The position numbers and the translations under genes were made by a program. This document shows, piece after piece, positions 6,646 to 61,507 of a DNA stretch of 64,000 nt. Source of the stretch: Bryum argenteum (lineage: Eukaryota; Streptophyta; Bryopsida; Bryales; Bryaceae); the NCBI GenBank assembly GCA_037043015.1, contig CM073324.1, positions 1,729,413-1,793,412 of the forward strand, written 5' to 3'. The notes under the pieces were generated by a model. That model made no database searches and was not told the DNA's origin. It saw only the letters and a list, made by a program, of their open reading frames with translations. Positions within the stretch are counted from its first letter, which is position 1. Each line of letters begins with the position of its first letter.

Positions 6646-9000
6646 TCACAAGAGGATGTGCGATTCAGGGAGTCGTGGTTTCGTGGGATTGATGTTGATG
6701 AACTCTTTGTACACGTGATTGCGGGCGGCGAGCAAGTAGATGGCGAAATTCAACAAGCTCATGACGGCCATGAGCAAGAAGAAGTAATTGAGGTGATTGC
6801 TGTCAAGGTCGGAATTCTGCAACCACCCACTGAATCCATTCACAGCTTCCATGAATCCTCCGTTCTGGAACAGGCCCATGGAGATCGGGAGCATCGACAG
6901 CGCGGTACCCGTGGTGCGCATCCGGGGCGGCGACTCGTAGTAGAAGAACTCGAACAGTCCGGCGTGCGCGAAGAAGATGGCCGTGCCCATGATCACCAGG
7001 ATCGGTAGCTGCCAGAAAATGCTCAGTTTGACGCCGCGCTGATCGAGCCGGATGGATTCGAGCAGCGCTGCGTAAGCTAACGCCACCACGGAGAGAGCTA
7101 GACCTGTGCCGATCCGCTGCAGGTGCGATAACCCGTGCGGACTACCCGTGTGACGTTGGAGGAGTGGCACTAGAAAGAAGTCGTAGGCTGCGAGCTCCAC
7201 TAGCACTATGGCGATCGCGATCGCGCTCACTGTTGTTGGTGGGATCTGGTACCCTGATGATCCTATGTGCCTCTCCATCGCGTACCCTTGCGTTGTTGTC
7301 CATGTCTGCACCTGCGCTAATATCTGCACGCCCACAAAAATGTTACGTTGATTCTGTTCAAATTTACCGCTTACCCTCAATTGCTGGAAATAGCGCAACA
7401 TCAAAAGAAATGAAAGATGGTAGAGTCCAGAGTACAAAATGGCACATGTAAGATTGCAGAAATAACAGAAATGAGGTTCGCTAGTCTATAGAATGGGTGC
7501 GTACCATGTAGAGTAGCATGGTGCTCAATGCGATGGGCAAGCATCGGAGAAGGCCTTTCACTTCCTCCACTTGCGTCACCGTGCAAAGTCTCGCCCTCTC
7601 CCAACCATGTACAATCGCTGCTTTGTCGAGCCACCTTCGGAAACAGGGGCAACCATCAGTACAAATTGGGAGGTTGAAGCTTACCGAGTCTATCCCAATT
7701 TCGTTCATATATTAACCCACTCACATTCATTGTGCAACTGGAGGACGCCATGTTTACGAAGTGATCAACTTGCACATAAGATAGTAGACGTCGACTGGAT
7801 TCCAGGGCGAGAACTCAGTGTCTGCGAGGTGGTACTATCTAAGAAATCCGCTGAAATGTGCTCATGGGGATTGGGAAGGATCGAGATGAGTGTACCGTAG
7901 GCCACTGGTGTGGCGGAGCAAGTAATAGGGTGTGCCGTCGGGCACGAAGTCCACGGACGCGAGTTCATGGAGCAAGCGGTGATCAGCTGGGAGTTTAAGG
8001 TTTCGATTCCGAAACGCGGAGGCGAACACGTGCCCGATGCGCGGCAGAGGGCTGCCGGCGGGTTTTTGATGACGGTAGCGGCCAATGCCAGCGAGGAAGC
8101 AGAGCGTGGCGAGCATCATGGCTATGCCGATGGAGGTGAAGGACCAGGTCCAGGACACATTCTCCCCGAGGTGCACCACGAGCGTGGTGGCGACGATGCC
8201 GCCAAACGTGATAGACACCACCAGCCAGTTGAAGAAGCTGGGCGTCCGCGAGCGCTCTGTCTCCTCCTCCTGGTCGAACTGGTTGCCTGCGAACGCCGAC
8301 AAGCACGGCCGAATGCAGCCCGCGCCGATGGCGATCAAGTAGAGCGCGAACATGCACACGTTCCACTGCCTCTTGGTCGCCGGCATGCACCCCCTGTGCT
8401 CGTCGCTCACACACTCCGGCTCCAGTGGCGGGATCGTCGATGAAATTATCAGTAACACCACACCCTGCATGCGGGCACTCGATCAGTCCCCCATCCAAAT
8501 GGCCAATGCAAGGATGGAGACAAGCTAGCTATGTGCATACCACAAGCTCGATGAGCATGGCTACGACGATGGTCCAGAAGTTGCCGAGGAAAGCATCGGA
8601 CATGAAGCCGCCCAGTAACGAGGTGAGGTACGAAGCGGCCCAGTAGTTCGAAACGGCAGTCAAGGCGGGCATGGCAGGCATGTGCATGGCCTTCTGCAGA
8701 TACAAGCTCAGATTGAATGCAATTCCCAAGTTCACCACGCCCTCGAACATCCCAGCTCCTGCACACACAATAAGCAAACACAGCAGTTACAATGCCAATC
8801 ATCAATGATACAAATAAAGCAGCGATCCATTCTTACTTTAACTTACCAAACAGAGTTGGTGCAGTCCTCCACCCGCCCGTGGTGGCCGCGTCCGCAGCTC
8901 GTCCTCTGAAATCCACGGACCCATCCGCAGTCACACCAGGCTTGCTTGTCGATTCCGAAACAACACTCTCTGCTCGACTACTTGGCTGTCGGGGCTGCAC
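6646..9000 (-). CDS. NPF: NRT1/PTR family (NPF) transporter, NPF4-like; N-terminal exon not found
   Basis: This is a multipass plasma-membrane or endomembrane transporter of the proton-coupled oligopeptide/nitrate family. Five coding exons join in phase: 8847-9000, 8541-8758, 7896-8464, 7505-7634 and 6646-7323. Together they give 582 residues, close to the usual family length. Visible family blocks are GGWRTAPTLFG at the start of the first membrane segment, YLTSLLGGFMSDAFLG, LRWLDKAA, CTVTQVEEVKGLLR, LAQVQTWTT and SHLQRIGTGL. The spacing and the MHMP and LLGGF(L/M)SDAF blocks most resemble plant NPF4 members, which move nitrate, abscisic acid or gibberellin; the substrate cannot be read from sequence. 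The ExxER proton-coupling motif is not intact: the region reads GAGMFEG, with only the second Glu kept and the Arg replaced by Gly. The frame at 9000 has no start codon and is preceded by an acceptor (ttcag), so a short first exon lies upstream of 9000 and was not identified. Confidence 0.9.
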
Positions 9001-26570: not shown

Positions 26571-28926
<2,356 letters not shown>

Positions 28927-29947: not shown

Positions 29948-32179
29948 TCACCTGTTACGCCTAGCGTAGCTCTTGATGCTCTGAAGATCGTCAGCAACTA
30001 CCCTCATGGTAGGACGATCCTTCCTCTTGTCTGCCAAGCAGTCCAGAGCAACCTCTGCAACGAGCTGTATAATCGGCAAAGACTGCCTAAACTCGTCGTA
30101 CTGCTCCCTCAGCTGCGGATCAACGATCATATCCAGATTTCCTGCCTTAATGATAGGTATAGCATACGCTGCTAAGCTATGCTCATCTCCTCTATTGTAA
30201 TCCAGCGGTTTCTGTGATGTAATAAGTTCCAGCAATACCACACCAAAGCTATAAACGTCGCTCTTATCTGTCAAGTGATAGCTGTGGAAGTACTCGGGGT
30301 CCAGGTAACCAGGTGTGCCCTGCACGGCCGTTGAAACATGGGTTTTGTCTGGGTTGGTCAAGCGAGATATACCAAAGTCGGCCACCTTGACAGAGAAAGT
30401 GTTGCTCAGCAAAATATTTGCTGACTTCACATCACGGTGATAAATAGGAGGCTGAGCAGCAAAATGAAGATAGGCCAGTGCATCAGCAGTCTCAGATGCA
30501 ATTTGCAGACGCTTGACCCAGTTGAGATTCACTCCGAACCTTAGTCTATGCAGATGTTCAAATAGATTGCCGTTGGGAATATACTCGTACACAAGAATCG
30601 GGACCTCAGTCTCAATGCAGCAACCGAAGAGCTTCACCAGATTGGGATGATTTGTCTGTGACAGTATAGAGATCTCATTCATGAGCTGTTTCTTGCCACT
30701 CTTGCTGGCAGAGTTCGACACTTTGATTGCGACATGCACCATCCCGTTCCGCAACGTGCCCTTGTACACAGTCCCGAATCCGCCAAGACCAAGAACTAGA
30801 TGCTCCCCAAAATTCTCCGAGGCTTTTTCAAGCTCTTTCAAGGTAAATACAGTAACTTGTCCATTCGATTGCGAGATCGAACTTATCACCTCCTGCAGAT
30901 TTGTGCTAGACGTGCTTTTGCGGAGTGGTACTCCATTTCTCCGCTTCCGTTGATAGCAGTACCATACCGTAACTGCTCCGATCACAATTATCAAGACGCA
31001 AATGATAGCTGCAAGAATTCAACAACAGTAAGAACACATGTGCAACTTCCACCTTTTAGCAATATTAGGCAGTCTCTCTGAGGTTCGACGCTCTAACCAG
31101 CAATGGCCGTGGTACTGCTGCTGCTTTTCTTTGATTCAGGGACGGTCGGAGCAACTGTCGAGTCTGCAGATGGCGAGTCTGCAAGTTGTCGTCGGATCTC
31201 CGAGCTCTGAACAGCCACTGAGAACCTTTGGCCTAGTTGACAGAGTGAAACTCCACTGGCCGTCTCCTGCGCACTCCCAAAGAAGTAAACTCCTGGAGCT
31301 CCCAATGTAACCTGGCACAAAAAAGTGGAATTCAGAAAGATATTATGCATGTACTTTTTTAAGACAATTGAGTTTCTCCAATTTCACAAAAAACATCGTA
31401 TCCCCAGTTGAATAGTTGGCAATGAATCAAATTGCAATTTGTGCTGGAGTAGTGAAGTGGTACAAAAAAGGAAACATCGACTCGAAAGTGCTCAATGGCA
31501 AAATCTGTTCACTTGTATATCTGCAGGAGCTGAAACATACCTTACTGACGAACTTATTTAGGATTTCGCTTTAACTAAATAATCTTCCTAATGAATTTAA
31601 TGTGGTTTACTTTCTAATTCAATTCAGGGCTTGGCAGGAAAGGGGGTTGAAACTTCTTACATAGATAGGGCTCGAGGAATGAAGGTCAAAAATGGACACA
31701 CCGCGCGTGAAATTGCAGGCATCAAGCGCTGCTTGCGAGTCAACTTGAAACAGACCGTAAGTACCGGGTGTGAAATGAAACTCTGGAACAAACCGATATG
31801 TTAATCACAGAAACAACAGTCAGGAAAAAATCAAGAGATTAATATCATTCAACATGTTGTATCCTGATATCCACTTTTGAGCTAATTCCTCTGCAGCACA
31901 ATTGAAGAACACCAACAATGTATCTTGGGCAACACGGGTTTTGAGCGATTCACTTCAGGCAATCTCACCTAGTGTATCGTTCACAAACAGACTATCAGAG
32001 GCAGCCCAACCGGCATAGTCTGGAACAAGCCCCGTCGCTGGATCGGCATCTGTCCAGCCGACATCCCCGCCAACTCTAACCGACTTCGCATTTGCCAGGC
32101 GACAGGAGGAATACAAGCCAACCACGACAGCTAATTGAAAAAATGCCTGGTACGAATTGGGAAATCTCATAGCAGCCAT
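29948..32179 (-). CDS. Receptor-like kinase with a phytocyanin-like ectodomain
   Basis: Four exons join in phase (31969-32179, 31661-31782, 31098-31311, 29948-31008) into 535 residues. Residues 1-31 form a signal peptide ending ANA. Residues 32-150 or so follow the phytocyanin plan: VRVGGDVGWTDAD, YAGWAASDSLFVNDTLEF, ALDACNF, SSPIYVTLGAPGVYFF and CQLGQRFSVAV. The two structural cysteines (in DACNF and LCQLG) remain, but the copper ligands of blue-copper phytocyanins (His in the HN motif, Cys after YFI, and the His before the second structural Cys) are replaced, as in early-nodulin-like proteins. A Ser/Pro-rich linker leads to a single membrane helix (IICVLIIVIGAVTVWYCY, about 183-200). The kinase domain (about 245-520) has GLGGFGTVYKG, VAIKV, HRDVKSANILL, DFG and GTPGYLDPEY, so it is a complete RD kinase, closest in feel to the WAK-like/LRK10-like group. 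Phytocyanins are normally separate GPI-anchored proteins. Confidence 0.88.
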
Positions 32180-40359: not shown

Positions 40360-40806
40360 TTGTGCCGATTGATGTTCCTGTTTTTTTTTTTTTTTTTTTA
40401 TTTATTTAAAACCTAAATTTATTATTCTTTTGGAATGATGATTGGTGAAGCACAGTGCATTGGAGGTAAACTTCTTGGAGTGGAGCAAGTGGTGGTAAAC
40501 TTCTTGGAGTGGAATCTCTTGGAGCACAAGTCTAAAAGGTATTATCATTGACTTTACTCTTGTGATTTTAAAAAGATTGAATTTAGGATTTATAGTAGGA
40601 TTTTTTTCCTACACTAAATCCTACTTTATAATAATTTTTGAAATCTTTGTTGGATTTATAGGGTTTAGAATAGGATCTTTGTTATCCTATATTAAATCTT
40701 ATATTTTTGATAACCTTCGTTGAAATTTTGTAGACTTTATATGATTTATGATAGGATCTTCATCATCCTATCATAAATCCTACTTTTTTTATTGTATTTT
40801 TAGACA

Positions 40807-43800
40807 ATGGCACGTGCTTTGTCTACCATTGATAATTTTCTAGATGTCAATGTTGATAGTGTTGGATCAATGTGCATCCAATGTCCAAAATGTTTGGCAT
40901 TTCGTTTTAAAAAAGAAAAAAATACCATTTGTTGTTACAATGGCAAAATTGCCAATGAACATGTTAATCACCCAATTGTCCATCCAATGCTCAATGAGCT
41001 TTATATGGGCACTACACCTAAATCTCGAGAGTTTATTAAACATATTCGAAAGTATAATCAAGCTTTTGCATTTACGAGTATGAGAAGTAAGTTTCAATCT
41101 AGCCAAGTTGAAGGTAGAGGGGTATATACTTTTCGTGTAAACGGAGAATTATGCCACCACATTGGAAATTTACAACTCGATTTAGACCAAGGTGCTAAAT
41201 TTGCACAAATTTATTTCTTGGATGATGGTTTACAAACGAATCGTCGTATGGAGATTTTTGATGATCTTCATCGTGATACTCTTGATAACATTCAAGAAGT
41301 TTTAGAATCCGTAAATACATTAGTTCGAGGTTTTAAGTCTTCGCGTGATGTTCTTCAAAGGGGATCAAACATGGGACTTCGTATCTCCGGTGAAGTTCTT
41401 TCTGGAGAACATCCCCGTCGATATAATCGCCAAGTAGTTCCAGAAGTTGCTGCTATTGTTCTTGACAAACAGTACATGAATTTAGGTAGAGATATTATTC
41501 TTCACCAACACGGTGGAAATTTACTACGAATAAAAGAAATTCACCCAGCGTACGATGCTTTATCCTATCCTTTGTTATTTCCTGAGGGACAATGTGGATG
41601 GTCACCGACTTTTAAAGCAAATACTGGAGTGACTTTAAAGTCATATGTCCAATATTTGCTTCAAAAGCGGCCGGAATCTAATGTACTACATAGGGCTCGT
41701 AGATTATTCCAGCAATATGTGGTAGATCAATATTTACGTGTAGAACATGAAAATTTGTTATTCATTAGACAACATCAAAATGAACTTCGTGCAGAATGCT
41801 ATCAGGGGATTGTAGATGCTTTGCAGGAGGACAATAGAGCACGCATTGGGCGTCGCATTGTCTTACCCGCAACATTTATTGGCTCCCCTCGATACATGCA
41901 AAAACTTTTTCATGATAGTATGGTTTTGGTTAGAGTTTTAGGAAAACCCGATTTGTTTGTGACAATGACGTGTAATCCGACCTGGCCTGAGATTCTTAAT
42001 GAGCTTGAACCAGGTCAAAGTCCTCCAGATCGTCCAGATGTTGTTGTACGTGTTTTTGAACTTAAATTAAAAACTTTGATGGATGAGATTACCAAGAAGA
42101 ATGTCATGGGAGAGACAATTGCTTTTTGTTACACTATTGAGTTTCAAAACGTGGTCTTCCTCATGCACACATTCTTCTTTGGTTAAAAGACAAGGTCAAT
42201 GATTTGTCACCTTATAGATAGAATAGTATGTCTTTGAGATTCCCGATTTAGATAGACAACCTCAATTGTATGCCATAGTTTGCCAAACATATGATGCATG
42301 GACCTTGTGGTTTGGACAATCCCAATTGTCCATGCATGGAAGACAATAGTAGATGTACAAAAAACTATCCTATGCAAGTTCGAGATACTACTGAGGTAGA
42401 TGGTGATGGTCATGTTTTATACCGTCGTCGAAACCAAGGTCGATATGTCGAGAAACGTGTACATGGACAAATCGTTCGCTTAGACAATCGATGGGTTGTA
42501 CCATACAATCCATATTTGATAGGTCGATTTAATTGTCACATTAATGTGGAAATTTGTAGTTCGGTAAAAACAATCAAATACCTCCACAAGTATATTTTTA
42601 AAGGTCCGGATCGTAGTGTTGTAGAAACAGGATGAAGTTGTAGATGAGATTAAAGATTTCTTGGAAGGTCGTTATGTGGTCGCCCAAGAAGCATGTTGGA
42701 GACTTTTGGTTTTGAAACTAACAATAAGAGTCATAGTATTTGTCGTTTACCCGTTCACCTTCCTGGTCAACAATATGTTACTTTTGAGGAGGCAACATCT
42801 TTGCAAACGGTGATTGATCAAAAATTTGAGACTAAACTCACTAAGTTTTTGAGCTCAATCGCCACATTCGTGCCTTGATTGCTTCTCGCAATCAAGGCAA
42901 TCATATGCTTCTTCGTTACATGGATCTTCCACTCCATTACAAGTGGGATGTGAAGAAAAACATGTGGGAAAGAAGACTACGTAATATTAAAGTTTTGGTA
43001 GGATAAATATGGTTCCCATGGGTACCGAAGTATTTTACTTACGTTTGTTGTTGACTCATGTTGAGGCACCAACTTCATTTTATGACCTACTTTGTTTTAA
43101 TGGTATTGTGCATTTAACGTACAAAGCCGCTTGTATTGCAAGAGGACTTTTACATGATGATATTGAGTGGGAAAATTGTCTACAAGAGGCAACTCTCATT
43201 GCGTTGCCTAAGCAAATTCGGCGGTTGTTTGCAACACTTCTTGTGTTTGGACAACCACTAGATCCTCTTAGTTTATTAAGGAGTCATCTTGATGCTATGT
43301 CTGATGATTGGCGCAATGATCAAAATCACTATTGCAAAGCGATTTTGTCCATTGAAGAATATTTGTCATCATCGGATAAACATCTTCTGATTTTTTAATA
43401 TCGAAGAATTGAATGAGTTTGGTTATCCAAACATTGTTGATGTTGGTAGTGATACCAATGACAATATTGATTTCGATAACCAAAACATTACTTTTCTAGA
43501 AGAGGATGTAGGTAGACTCAACGAAGAACAAAACATTGTTTTTAATGCAGTGACCTCTCTTTGTTTTAAATTCTGATTCTTCAAATAGGCTTTTCTTTTT
43601 AGATGGTCCTGGTGGTACAGGTAAGACTTTTTTGTATAACACCATATTAGGTTATCTTCGTGGTCGTAATGTCAAGTGTATGGCAATGGCAACAAGTGGA
43701 ATTGCCGCATGCCTTTTGAATGAAGGGCGAACGGCACATTCATCTCTTGCTATTCCTTTACAGTTGCGCGATGCATCAATTTGCAACATTAGTGCCCAAT

Positions 43801-44858
43801 CTACATTAGGTCAAAGCTTACGTGAAGTACAATTGATTGTACTTGATGAAGCTTGTGCTGGACATCGTTTTATGTATGAAGCTATAGATAGATCTTTGCG
43901 AGATATACGCGGTATAGACAATCCAAATGGTGGTGTTGTAGTTTTATATGGTCGTGATTTTCGCCAAACTTTGCCTGTAGTTGTACGTGGAGGTCGCAAG
44001 CAAACTGTTGAGGCTTGCTTGCGACATTCATATTTATTTCCACTGATGCAACATTTTCATCTGACCACTAACATGCGTTTGCAAAGTCAACCGGACTTTC
44101 AACGATTTTTGCTAGATATTGGTGAAGGCAAAACCGGTCCAAAGGTAGATTTACCGCCCGAATTAGTTGCTCCTGGAAATTCTTTAGATGGTCTCATTAA
44201 TGCTATTTTTGATGATCCGGTTGATTTTTCTGAACGTGTCATTTTGGCTGTTCGAAATGATGATGCTCAAGAAATCAACCGAAAAATTACCGATCGTTTA
44301 CCCGGTGATGTGCATCAATGTTTTAGTGCTGACTTTGTTCACGAGAATGATGAACATGCTCATCATTATCCTGTAGAGTTTTTGAATTCTTTACAATTGA
44401 GCGGTTTGCCTCCTCACCAATTAGATCTTAAATGTGGTCAATATTTGATGTTGCTAAGGAACTTGAATCCGGCAAAAGGTTTGTGCAATGGTAGTCGTTT
44501 GCGTCTTTTGCAAGTGTCTTCCAATGTGTTGTTGTGCAAAATTGTAGAAGGACGCTATCGTAGCCAAGAGGTGTTGATTCCTAGAATCACCCACCATTGC
44601 AATGATAGCCGCTTGCCATTCACACTTTGCCGGAAACAATTTCCTGTCACTGGTGCATTTGCCATGACAATTAACAAATCGCAGGGCCAATCATATGATC
44701 GAGTCGGCATTTATCTCCGTAATGAAGTATTCAGCCATGGTCAATTATATGTGGCATTGTCTCGTGGTAGACATCCTGCAAACATTAAGGTTGCCAATGA
44801 CAACAATGAAGCCGTGAGAACGGTGAAAAATGTTGTTTATCATGAGGTTTTTACATGA
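40807..44858 (+). pseudogene. Helitron Rep-helicase (RepHel), broken by frameshifts
   Basis: The frame opens at 40807 with a zinc-finger-like CIQCPKC block, runs through the Helitron-like N-terminal domain (LLFPEGQCGW) and CNPTWPEI, and breaks at about 42147, where one A appears lost from an A run. The rolling-circle HUH motif (PHAHIL, 42159-42176) continues in the shifted frame. A further frame (42291-42635) holds MMHGPCG, CTKNYP and the two catalytic tyrosines in KYLHKYIFKG (codons at 42579 and 42591). More breaks follow near 42640-43000 and 43400. The Pif1-like helicase has Walker A GPGGTGKT (43605-43628), a Walker B-type LIVLDEA, a GRDFRQTLPVV block (normally GGDFRQ) and the C-terminal INKSQGQ and VALSRGR motifs, ending at 44858. 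The protein is non-functional as it stands. Confidence 0.93.
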
Positions 44859-56067: not shown

Positions 56068-59000
56068 CTATTTTTTCGCCGTATAGATTTTCCTCAAGTC
56101 TAATAACCTTGTGTCTCTTTGCTCTAGGACACTCCCCATCCGATTCACCGGCGGTCCTCTAGGAACAACAAAAGCTGGTGTTGATGAAGTGCGACCAGGA
56201 ACATATGTGTCCACGAATGGTTCAATTACCGTGTTTGGGTTCCTCCCCCCTATTCCTAATGAACAACGTCTGCTTGGCCTGGAAGACAAGACATCGCCAA
56301 CATTCTGTCCCCCTCCATCTACAGTGTCTGCAATGCCTCTAGGCCGTATCCATTTTGTAGTGGATGTTGAGCCTCCAAACCCTCCGCGGTCTATGTTTCC
56401 GCTAGGAGTGTTAGTTCCCCCACGTCCTCTAGCTCCGTTTCTTCCACGTGCTTGGTGGTATTGTCCCATTGGATGATGGATAGCTGGCATAGGGATAATA
56501 GGAGGCCTCCCACGGGACCCATCAGATTGGGAAGCTCTTCCACTAGCATTTGTTGCTCCTCCACTAGTATTTGGTGTAGGTGTATTTAGCCCAGAGACTG
56601 TTCTGGCGACCGGAATATCCGCGTGCATAGGGTCAACATCATCGGTGAATTCGAATGCATCGTGAATCCTACTGATATTCGGATCAAGACATTGGGGCGC
56701 AACAACGGGTGTAATAGTTCTCCCAATCCCTCCCAATCTTGATGCATTTGGGCTATTTCCCACTTCTCGCGGGGCCACATCTTCAAAACGATCCACAATT
56801 GTTGTATAGGTATTGGGAGTTCCAATAGTACCAATTGTGCCATCTTCTCCCTCGTTTTGCTCATTATCCTCATTGTTTCCGAAAGAGGGGTGGTTGTAGT
56901 TAACATCATGAGCGGGTATGGTTTGATTTGCTTCACGATCTAGCCCATGATCCGAATCTTCGTTTTCGAATCCAACATCGTAATCCGCGCTTGATTGATG
57001 ACGACATTAGGGCGATTGTCCGGCGATGGAATGCGACGAGTAGGACTTGTACTCCATGCTCCAAAGACCCCAACGGATTGGCTCTTGGTCATCGTCCATT
57101 GCATCGTCTTCACCGTAATATTCCCTACTCTCCCTAGAAGGTCCGCACCTTCACCCCGAGAGATCCGGATTTTGTCGGTACTCTCTACCTTCCCAATTGG
57201 CTTCCATGTCACTATCGTCCCTCTTCGATAGGAACTCTCGGTTGGGCTCATCTACCGGGAATCTGGGCCGAGGCATCTCGGGTCTCAATCCTCCGAGTTG
57301 GCATTGTCTTCATACCGAAGTGGTTCGGCCCCTGGTCTTTTTTCGTAATACACGGCCATTGGTATAGATATACACTAATGTCTCTCGCTTTTTCGGGCCT
57401 AACCGATTTCGGCTCTTATTGTGCACAAATGAGTAAGCACTCCAATTACGCTCACATGAACTAGTCGAACATGTGAGAGACAATATGCGTACCGCTATTT
57501 TGGAAAGGTGCGATCTCCAATCCTATACCACCATTGATGGGGAGCATGTTCATTGCACGGATGTCGAAGGCAATGTCGGGGCTATATGGCCCTGTACCTT
57601 CGTCATACTCTTGTAATTCGGATATGACGTCTTCATACTTCACACACCACGTCTTTTAATTTTGAATTACACGATATAGCGCACGGAGGGCTACGCCATC
57701 TTGCTTTTAGCGCCGCATTCTCCTTGAGATATGGATTCAAGAGGCAGTGCGAGTGAAGATCCGTAAAACACATGGCCCTCCTCGCTTTGAATGAATCCTC
57801 CAATATTGTTGCAATATCTGGTCGGACGCTAAATGGTGGATCCCTGAATGAAGTCACATGTTGATGCAATCCTTGTAGTATGAGCCATGCCTTACCCATT
57901 GCGGGTTCTCGGCCATCAAACACGCGTAATGCTTTCAAAACCTCCTCCGTCATGTAAATGAAATTCTTGCACCGCTGCCAGAAGGCCCCATCCTCAATGG
58001 TGCGCACGATATTGCGCCAGGCGGTGGCTGCCCGCTCCCCTCCCATCCTGTCCCTCAAGGTATTGGTATAGTTCTGAACTCGAGGATGGTCTTTCAGTGC
58101 CTCTAGGACAGGCTTGAGTTTGACGAGTCGGTCCATCATCAACATATTGCATGCAAAGCGCGTCTCCCCCGGCACCAGGATTGAGAGTTTAGGACTCAAT
58201 TCACGAAATGTTGCCATTGTTGCATGATGGTTCCTAATATAATGGCACAACTTTCTTGCCCTCTCGATAAGGTCCTTGAAGATGTCGATTTTTGCCCAAT
58301 CTTCCAATAGGAGATCCAAAGCATGAGCCATGCATCCTTGCGAGAAAATCCATGGATACTCCTCGATGATACATTTCATTGCTCCAAGCATGTTTGCAGC
58401 GTTATCCGTACACACTGCAGTCACATTCTTAGGTCCCACCTTCTCAATGAATACTTTGAGTTTGTTTGCTATATACGTCGCAGATTTTGTCTGCCCAGTG
58501 GTGTCAATGCTTCCTAGAAATACATCTCCGGTGGGCACGTCATCATCACATTCATGAGGGGCCTACGATTAACATCGTCCCAACCATCGGTGCATATGGA
58601 CACCCCATACGCGGATTTTGCAAATCCGATTCTTGACTCAATCTCCTTCTCGACTCGCAATCCTTTGGGTTCTATGAGATTAGTCCTGAATTGGTGATAA
58701 GATGGAGGAACATAGTCAAACCTCGCCTTGGAAGTTGCTAAAACCGCTTCAATAAAAAAAAACGGGTTCCCCGGCCACGTTGAATGGGATATTTGCGTTA
58801 TAGAAACAATTTGCCCACTTTTCATCCAATTCTCTTCTCTTCGCGGTGTTCAAAGATTCCTCCATGCTACGTTGGCGTCATCGCACTACGGACCTCGTAG
58901 AATTTGATGCGCCTCGGGTAGCCGACATGGAGTGTGGATTCTCACGTCCCTCTACCACGCACGCATCCCGGCCTCCTCCTCGTGAGGACTTCCACCCCTC

Positions 59001-60242: not shown

Positions 60243-61300
60243 TGAAGAAGAATGAATTAAACATAATACCACCCACCAGTACATTCTTTAGTCCTAATAT
60301 AAATTGTGATCGTAAAATCAAATATATGATTAAACCATTAGGATGATAAATTTATTTGTAATATAGTATTGGGAAGAAGAATGAAATAAACATAATACCA
60401 CCCACCAAAGACATTCTTTAGTCCTAATATAAATTGTGATCGTAAAATCAAATATATGATTAAACCATTAGGATGATAAATTTATTTGTAATATAGTATT
60501 GGGAAGAAGAATGAAATAAACATAATCCCACCCACTAGTACATTCTTTAGTCCTAATATAAATTGTGATCGTAAAATCAAATATATGATTAAACCATTAG
60601 GATGATAAATTTATTTGTAATATAGTATTGGGAAGAAGAATGAAATAAACATAATACCACCCACCAGTACATTCTTTAGTCCTAATATAAATTGTGATCG
60701 TAAAATCAAATATATGATTAAACCATTAGGATGATAAATTTATTCGTAATATAGTATTGGGAAGAAGAATGAAATAAACATAATACCACCCACTAGTACA
60801 TTCTTTAGTCCTAATATAAATTGTGATCGTAAAATCAAATATATGATTAAACCATTAGGATGATAAATTTATTTGTAATATAGTATTGGGAAGAAGAATG
60901 AAATAAGCATAATACCACCCACCAGTACATTCTTTAGTCCTAATATAAATTGTGATCGTAAAATCAAATATATGATTAAACCATTAGGATGATAAATTTA
61001 TTTGTAATATAGTATTGGGAAGAAGAATGAAATAAACATAATACCACCCACCAGTACATTCTTTAGTCCTAATATAAATTGTGATCGTAAAATCAAATAT
61101 ATGATTAAACCATTAGGATGATAAATTTATTTGTAATATAGCATTGGGAAGAAGAATGAAATAAACATAATACCACCCACCAAGACATTCTTTAGTCCTA
61201 ATATAAATTGTGATCGTAAAATCAAATATATGATTAAACCATTAGGATGATAAATTTATTTGTAATATAGCATTGGGAAGAAGAATGAATTAAACATAAT
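60243..61300. repeat. 129-bp tandem satellite, eight units
   Basis: Units beginning GGGAAGAAGAATGAAATAAA start at 60371, 60501, 60630, 60759, 60888, 61017, 61146 and 61275 (partial), with a slightly divergent first unit from 60243. The spacing is 129-130 bp. Units are nearly identical; differences are single bases such as AGTACA versus AGACA. This is a recently homogenised local array. Confidence 0.97.
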
Positions 61301-61507
61301 AGAAGGTGGGATTGGAGAAAAATAGCACACATTTTAAGAATATCATTTTTTTGGGACGTGGTAGCTCGACTTTGAAATAGAGGGGGAATTGGTTTGTAGT
61401 GGGGCAATCTTGAATAAGAGAGGAAATACGGAAACTTCATTTCTCTCTTTCCTTGATCCCCCTTGGCTCCTTCTTCCACCTACCGGGTATTTTTAAAGTA
61501 ATGAAGT

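Follow-up and report, generated by a model that had tools for sequence, protein, structure and literature searches.

A predicted receptor-like kinase with a phytocyanin ectodomain, apparently exon-shuffled, in the moss Bryum argenteum

The phytocyanin domain is a small domain of cell-surface proteins, best known for binding copper. Early-nodulin-like (ENODL) phytocyanins have the phytocyanin fold without the copper ligands and are GPI-anchored. In Arabidopsis, the GPI-anchored phytocyanins ENODL14/15 interact with FERONIA (PMC6726743), and the interaction of ENODL14 with FERONIA is also described in PMC9223364; the ligand and the downstream parts are listed as unidentified in the first of these papers (PMC6726743). 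A survey of phytocyanins from ten plants, including a moss and Selaginella, used the signal peptide, the domain, the AGP-like region and the anchor signal to distinguish ten types (PMC4499708). Its main text mentions no kinase among these types, and the word "kinase" occurs there 0 times. In the main text of a receptor study of 350 genomes (PMC10834447) the terms phytocyanin, plastocyanin and Cu_bind are absent, which is weak evidence since seven named ectodomain types were sought. As far as the accessible text of the open-licence literature goes, no phytocyanin receptor kinase was found; unpublished or merely annotated relatives may exist.

PK-like chimeric arabinogalactan proteins (AGPs), reported from 46 of 47 species, resemble the gene described here in that an AGP-type region and a kinase occur in one protein. 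They are, however, a class separate from the phytocyanin-like AGPs, and the available text describes no protein with both a phytocyanin domain and a kinase (PMC5266747). In animals, the ephrins have a cupredoxin-type fold that has lost its copper ligands, and they act in cell-cell signalling (PMC6485061, PMC6993872). Ephrins are ligands of a receptor kinase, whereas the phytocyanin domain of the present gene would be the ectodomain of one; the likeness is one of analogy, not kinship.

The present gene is predicted on the minus strand of a 64 kb stretch of B. argenteum DNA, which we refer to as the window. A sequence-only reading had proposed four exons at this position, and the borders, phases and open frame were all as it stated: the exons (211, 122, 214 and 1061 nt; intron phases 1, 0 and 1) join into one open frame of 535 aa, and all borders are GT..AG. 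The parts of the gene, in the order of transcription, are:

31969..32179, minus strand: exon 1, signal-peptide-like start and first phytocyanin strands (residues 1-70), with 42-44% similarity to exon 1 of the C3 phytocyanin gene.
31783..31968, minus strand: intron 1, phase 1, in the position typical of phytocyanin genes; all nine other genes compared, of 19 other places known, share this position and phase.
31661..31782, minus strand: exon 2, middle of the phytocyanin domain; Cys93 is the first structural cysteine and Tyr79 replaces the first His ligand.
31312..31660, minus strand: intron 2, phase 0; among nine genes compared, common only to the non-kinase phytocyanin gene at C3:25.745 Mb.
31098..31311, minus strand: exon 3, end of the phytocyanin domain (ligand positions Gly123, Leu134 and Gln139; Cys135 is the second structural cysteine) and Ser/Pro-containing linker.
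31009..31097, minus strand: intron 3, 89 nt, phase 1, immediately 5' of the membrane helix; phase and place match two C2 GUB_WAK receptor kinase genes.
29948..31008, minus strand: exon 4, membrane helix, basic stop-transfer stretch, juxtamembrane part, complete RD kinase and stop; the nearest kinases are GUB_WAK-type.

Elsewhere in the window, a polyubiquitin gene of five 228-nt units (27718-28926, plus strand) lies tail to tail with the receptor gene. A Helitron-type transposon with Helitron_like_N and PIF1 helicase frames was found at 40804-44858 (plus strand), a frame with a DUF659 domain match at 57633-58562 (minus strand), a frame for a PTR2/POT-family transporter at 6646-7485 (minus strand) and a tandem repeat of 129 nt (8.2 copies, 97% matches) at 60244-61301. 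DUF659 is associated with transposon-derived genes. Rfam gave 0 matches across the window.

The predicted protein matched both Cu_bind_like and PK_Tyr_Ser-Thr (162 bits) above the Pfam cut-offs, in agreement with the earlier claim of a phytocyanin and a full RD kinase in one protein. Of the architecture claimed, the domains, the Ser/Pro-containing linker (~35 residues), the kinase and the single membrane helix (Kyte-Doolittle maximum 2.92 over 19 residues) stood; the signal peptide, in contrast, was assigned by eye, the N-terminus being under the 1.6 hydropathy threshold that the membrane helix alone passed. The front of the protein also carries two N-glycosylation motifs. With an ectodomain, one membrane helix and an RLK/Pelle-type kinase in one protein, the model is that of a receptor-like kinase.

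The Cu_bind_like match (PF02298) covers residues 54-125 and scores 24.9 bits on the N-terminal 182 aa, just above the curated cut-off of 20.8, and 22.2 bits on the whole protein. In a phmmer search against PDB, the front matched cucumber stellacyanin (2.1e-9), mavicyanin (2.5e-7) and umecyanin (0.0015). A profile of ten phytocyanin domains, all of them from the same genome and nine of them other than that of the window gene, retrieved mavicyanin (1.2e-33), followed by umecyanin, stellacyanin, cucumber basic protein and plantacyanin. By Pfam, phmmer and alignment alike, phytocyanin matches fall within the first 150 residues, where the domain had been placed from the sequence. The alignment also bears out the claim that the structural cysteines are kept and the copper ligands lost: Cys93 and Cys135, the disulphide pair, are present together with the axial-type Gln139, and the ligands His, Cys and His are replaced by Tyr79, Gly123 and Leu134. 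The phytocyanin fold is likely to have been kept, and the domain most likely has no bound copper. The domain can be assigned to the phytocyanins by its Pfam match and its two structural cysteines; it is not classed as a copper protein, because it has no His, Cys and His. Nor is the protein an ENODL, since the ligands are gone but a membrane helix and a kinase stand in place of the GPI tail; by analogy it may nevertheless work like one.

All kinase motifs sought (GLGGFG, VAIK, HRDVKSAN, DFG and DPE) are present, which is the motif set of a predicted competent RD kinase, and the best PDB matches of the kinase were FERONIA and SymRK. The kinase was 58% identical to an array on C2 and, in a kinase scan in which 115 of 960 candidates were scored, 49-50% identical to a pair on C6. 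A kinase tree was built of 29 rows from this genome only, consisting of rows from the best matches to the window kinase, together with L053; L033, L043 (one of the nine C2 genes, not spliced) and L041 (the same gene as L017) were excluded. In this tree eight C2 rows and two C6 rows form one clade with the window kinase (support 99/97). Support for pairing the window kinase directly with the C2 rows is 94/91, and its branch is long (0.55); the program gave a long-branch warning that covers the rows of the window and C5 genes. Pfam supplied the ectodomain labels of L023, L053, L017 and the C2 gene of L054, and all other labels in the tree were assigned by eye.

Both fronts of these relatives that were scanned, one from C6 and one from C2, matched GUB_WAK_bind above cut-off, and Pfam found no GUB_WAK_bind (PF13947) match in the window protein. 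The window gene thus shares its kinase clade with the GUB_WAK-type receptor kinases but has a phytocyanin domain where the two scanned relatives have a galacturonan-binding-type ectodomain. We take "LRK10L" to be the name for the GUB_WAK_bind receptor kinases of this analysis; Pfam itself gives GUB_WAK_bind. The C2 relatives, the closest kinase relatives of the window gene, form an array of at least nine kinase genes at C2:7.787-8.025 Mb (L028-L032, L034, L035, L038 and L043), in which two genes were seen with GUB_WAK-type fronts (L054 and L055). The C2 genes are split within the kinase, whereas the kinase of the window gene is unsplit.

Comparison of the introns pointed to a separate origin of the two halves. 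The front is nearest to the gene at C3:25.745 Mb (33% identity), a three-exon phytocyanin gene, non-kinase, that shares the domain, the structural cysteines, the signal-peptide-like start and introns 1 and 2 with the window gene; intron 2 is absent from the eight other genes compared. The C3 gene differs from the window gene in retaining His, Cys and His, and six of the eight non-kinase phytocyanin models end, by eye, in a hydrophobic anchor-like tail, unlike the window gene. Intron 3 has its counterpart, in phase and place, in the two C2 GUB_WAK genes whose upstream sequence was read; both have a phase-1 intron just 5' of the membrane helix. Each intron of the predicted gene is therefore matched in the family that would have supplied that half. 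The gene looks like an exon-shuffled receptor with a phytocyanin front and an LRK10L/WAK-like back. An LRK10L/WAK-like (GUB_WAK-type) receptor kinase would have contributed the exon for helix and kinase, which would have been joined at a phase-1 intron to three phytocyanin exons. Both halves are distant from their nearest relatives (33% to C3 for the front, 58% to C2 for the kinase), so the shuffling cannot be seen directly.

The third junction decides between one gene and two. With exons 1 and 2 and the start of exon 3 fixed and a minimum intron length of 60 nt, the frame is kept by 68 GT-AG pairs. Just two of these preserve the helix together with the end of the domain; they share acceptor 31008 and use donor 31098 or 31116. 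The donor of intron 3, GTTAGA, deviates from the usual GTAAGT, and when reading continues beyond it (frame 31093..31383) a stop follows at most two codons from exon 3, so that an unspliced message would yield a soluble protein. This would suit two adjacent genes, one encoding a copper-free phytocyanin that is secreted and has its end in exon 3, the other a separate receptor kinase starting elsewhere. Against such a pair, exon 4 has its first Met at residue 272, beyond the glycine loop (residue 256), which leaves the kinase exon without its own start; tblastn with two queries (E<=1) detected no front exon of GUB_WAK type within the 64 kb window; the end of exon 3 has no hydrophobic GPI tail; intron 3 corresponds to a homologous intron in two genes of the kinase family; and a second gene, on C5, has the same join without an intron. 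We consider two separate genes very improbable.

This second phytocyanin receptor kinase in the genome is a two-exon gene at C5:14.2166-14.2184 Mb (L017), in which the main part of the phytocyanin domain, a membrane helix and the kinase are contained in one open frame of 497 residues (Pfam: Cu_bind_like 74.7 bits, kinase 154). It resembles the window gene in its order of phytocyanin domain, membrane helix and RD kinase. It differs in having no intron between domain and helix, in an L-lectin-like kinase and in its retained ligands His, Cys and His; the axial residue in the alignment is Leu. Its kinase groups with two L-lectin kinases (support 100/99); of its four best other matches, with 126 of 936 candidates scored, L061, L062 and L064 are L-lectin-receptor-like by eye and L060 is without visible ectodomain. 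Forcing both phytocyanin kinases together cost 130 log-likelihood units and a single origin was rejected (AU p = 1.4e-5), in a test made after inspection of the tree and involving long branches. The join of phytocyanin and kinase most likely arose at least twice, and receptors appear to have acquired the phytocyanin domain as their outer part on more than one occasion. An ordinary phytocyanin lies ~15 kb from the C5 gene and an L-lectin kinase ~27 kb from it; local assembly of the C5 chimera was considered, and each half has a closer relative than the neighbour of its kind.

A kinase was present at two of the 20 phytocyanin places checked (18 Pfam matches, the C3 gene and the window gene), and at the 18 non-chimeric places none was found in the stretch examined, with flanks of ~1.5 kb for some. 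The genome-wide Pfam scan reads exon by exon and missed both the window gene and the C3 gene, so further split genes may exist. Six of the phytocyanin matches are clustered at C10:4.918-4.964 Mb (L019, L020, L021 and L058), one of them with two internal stops.

The proposal that the window gene represents a new receptor class gained weight from this second, independently formed gene; loss of the copper ligands is no rule for phytocyanin receptor kinases, since the C5 gene retains them. As a model, a predicted receptor-like kinase with a new type of ectodomain is well supported by the sequence and by the twofold occurrence. The C5 ligands, and the axial-place Gln139 retained in the window gene, are what a sensor of apoplastic redox state, with a domain that still binds copper, has in its favour; the window gene has none of the three strong ligands, and we regard such a sensor as extremely improbable there.

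Taken as a whole, the window gene is best explained as an exon-shuffled single-pass receptor-like kinase with a copper-free phytocyanin ectodomain that most likely binds a wall-derived or secreted partner, to which we assign a probability of about 0.72; the confidences given to this and to the rival explanations are not mutually exclusive. The gene is presumed to be expressed, and the phytocyanin fold, without a copper site, would be exposed outside the cell. By analogy with ENODL14/15 and FERONIA, its partner would most likely be a glycan, a peptide or a partner receptor. Here the domain would act in cis, fused to its own kinase, whereas the GPI-anchored ENODLs are reported to act in trans with FERONIA. 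Binding would bring the kinase domains together, and ordinary RD-kinase phosphorylation would follow. Ligand binding as a general property of copper-free phytocyanins rests on few cases.

The outer part could instead be a wall tether or spacer, held through O-glycans on the Ser/Pro linker, or a dimer interface, in either case with no specific ligand and with a kinase that reports tension or crowding. The Ser/Pro-containing linker and the two N-glycosylation motifs would fit this, and chimeric arabinogalactan proteins with kinase domains have been described (PMC5266747). The linker is, however, shorter than the Pro-rich tails of the C7a, C7b, C4d and C3 phytocyanins, though not shorter than all, and the core of the domain is retained, which a mere spacer would not require; we hold this to be unlikely. 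A similarity search found no close second copy of the window gene in this genome, and this, together with the long branch in the kinase tree, could also mean a little-used chimera without settled function that is heading for loss. Although the gene differs greatly from its nearest relatives, the frame, the splice borders and all kinase motifs sought are intact; this speaks for prolonged maintenance by selection, and we consider impending loss quite unlikely.

Alongside the receptor with a partner-binding ectodomain, a broader reading can be put forward tentatively, as doubtful at present: the phytocyanin fold would be a repeatedly recruited ectodomain, taken up at least twice in one genome by different receptor families, as a copper-free partner sensor in the window gene and as the C5 receptor, which keeps His, Cys and His and could use a type-1 copper site to sense copper or redox state in the apoplast.

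A natural fusion of a phytocyanin to a receptor kinase would be a direct hint of the part of this fold in signal reception, and it offers a single-gene system in which that role can be tested. With two independent fusions in the same genome, only one of which retains the copper ligands, the copper-dependent and copper-independent readings could be separated.
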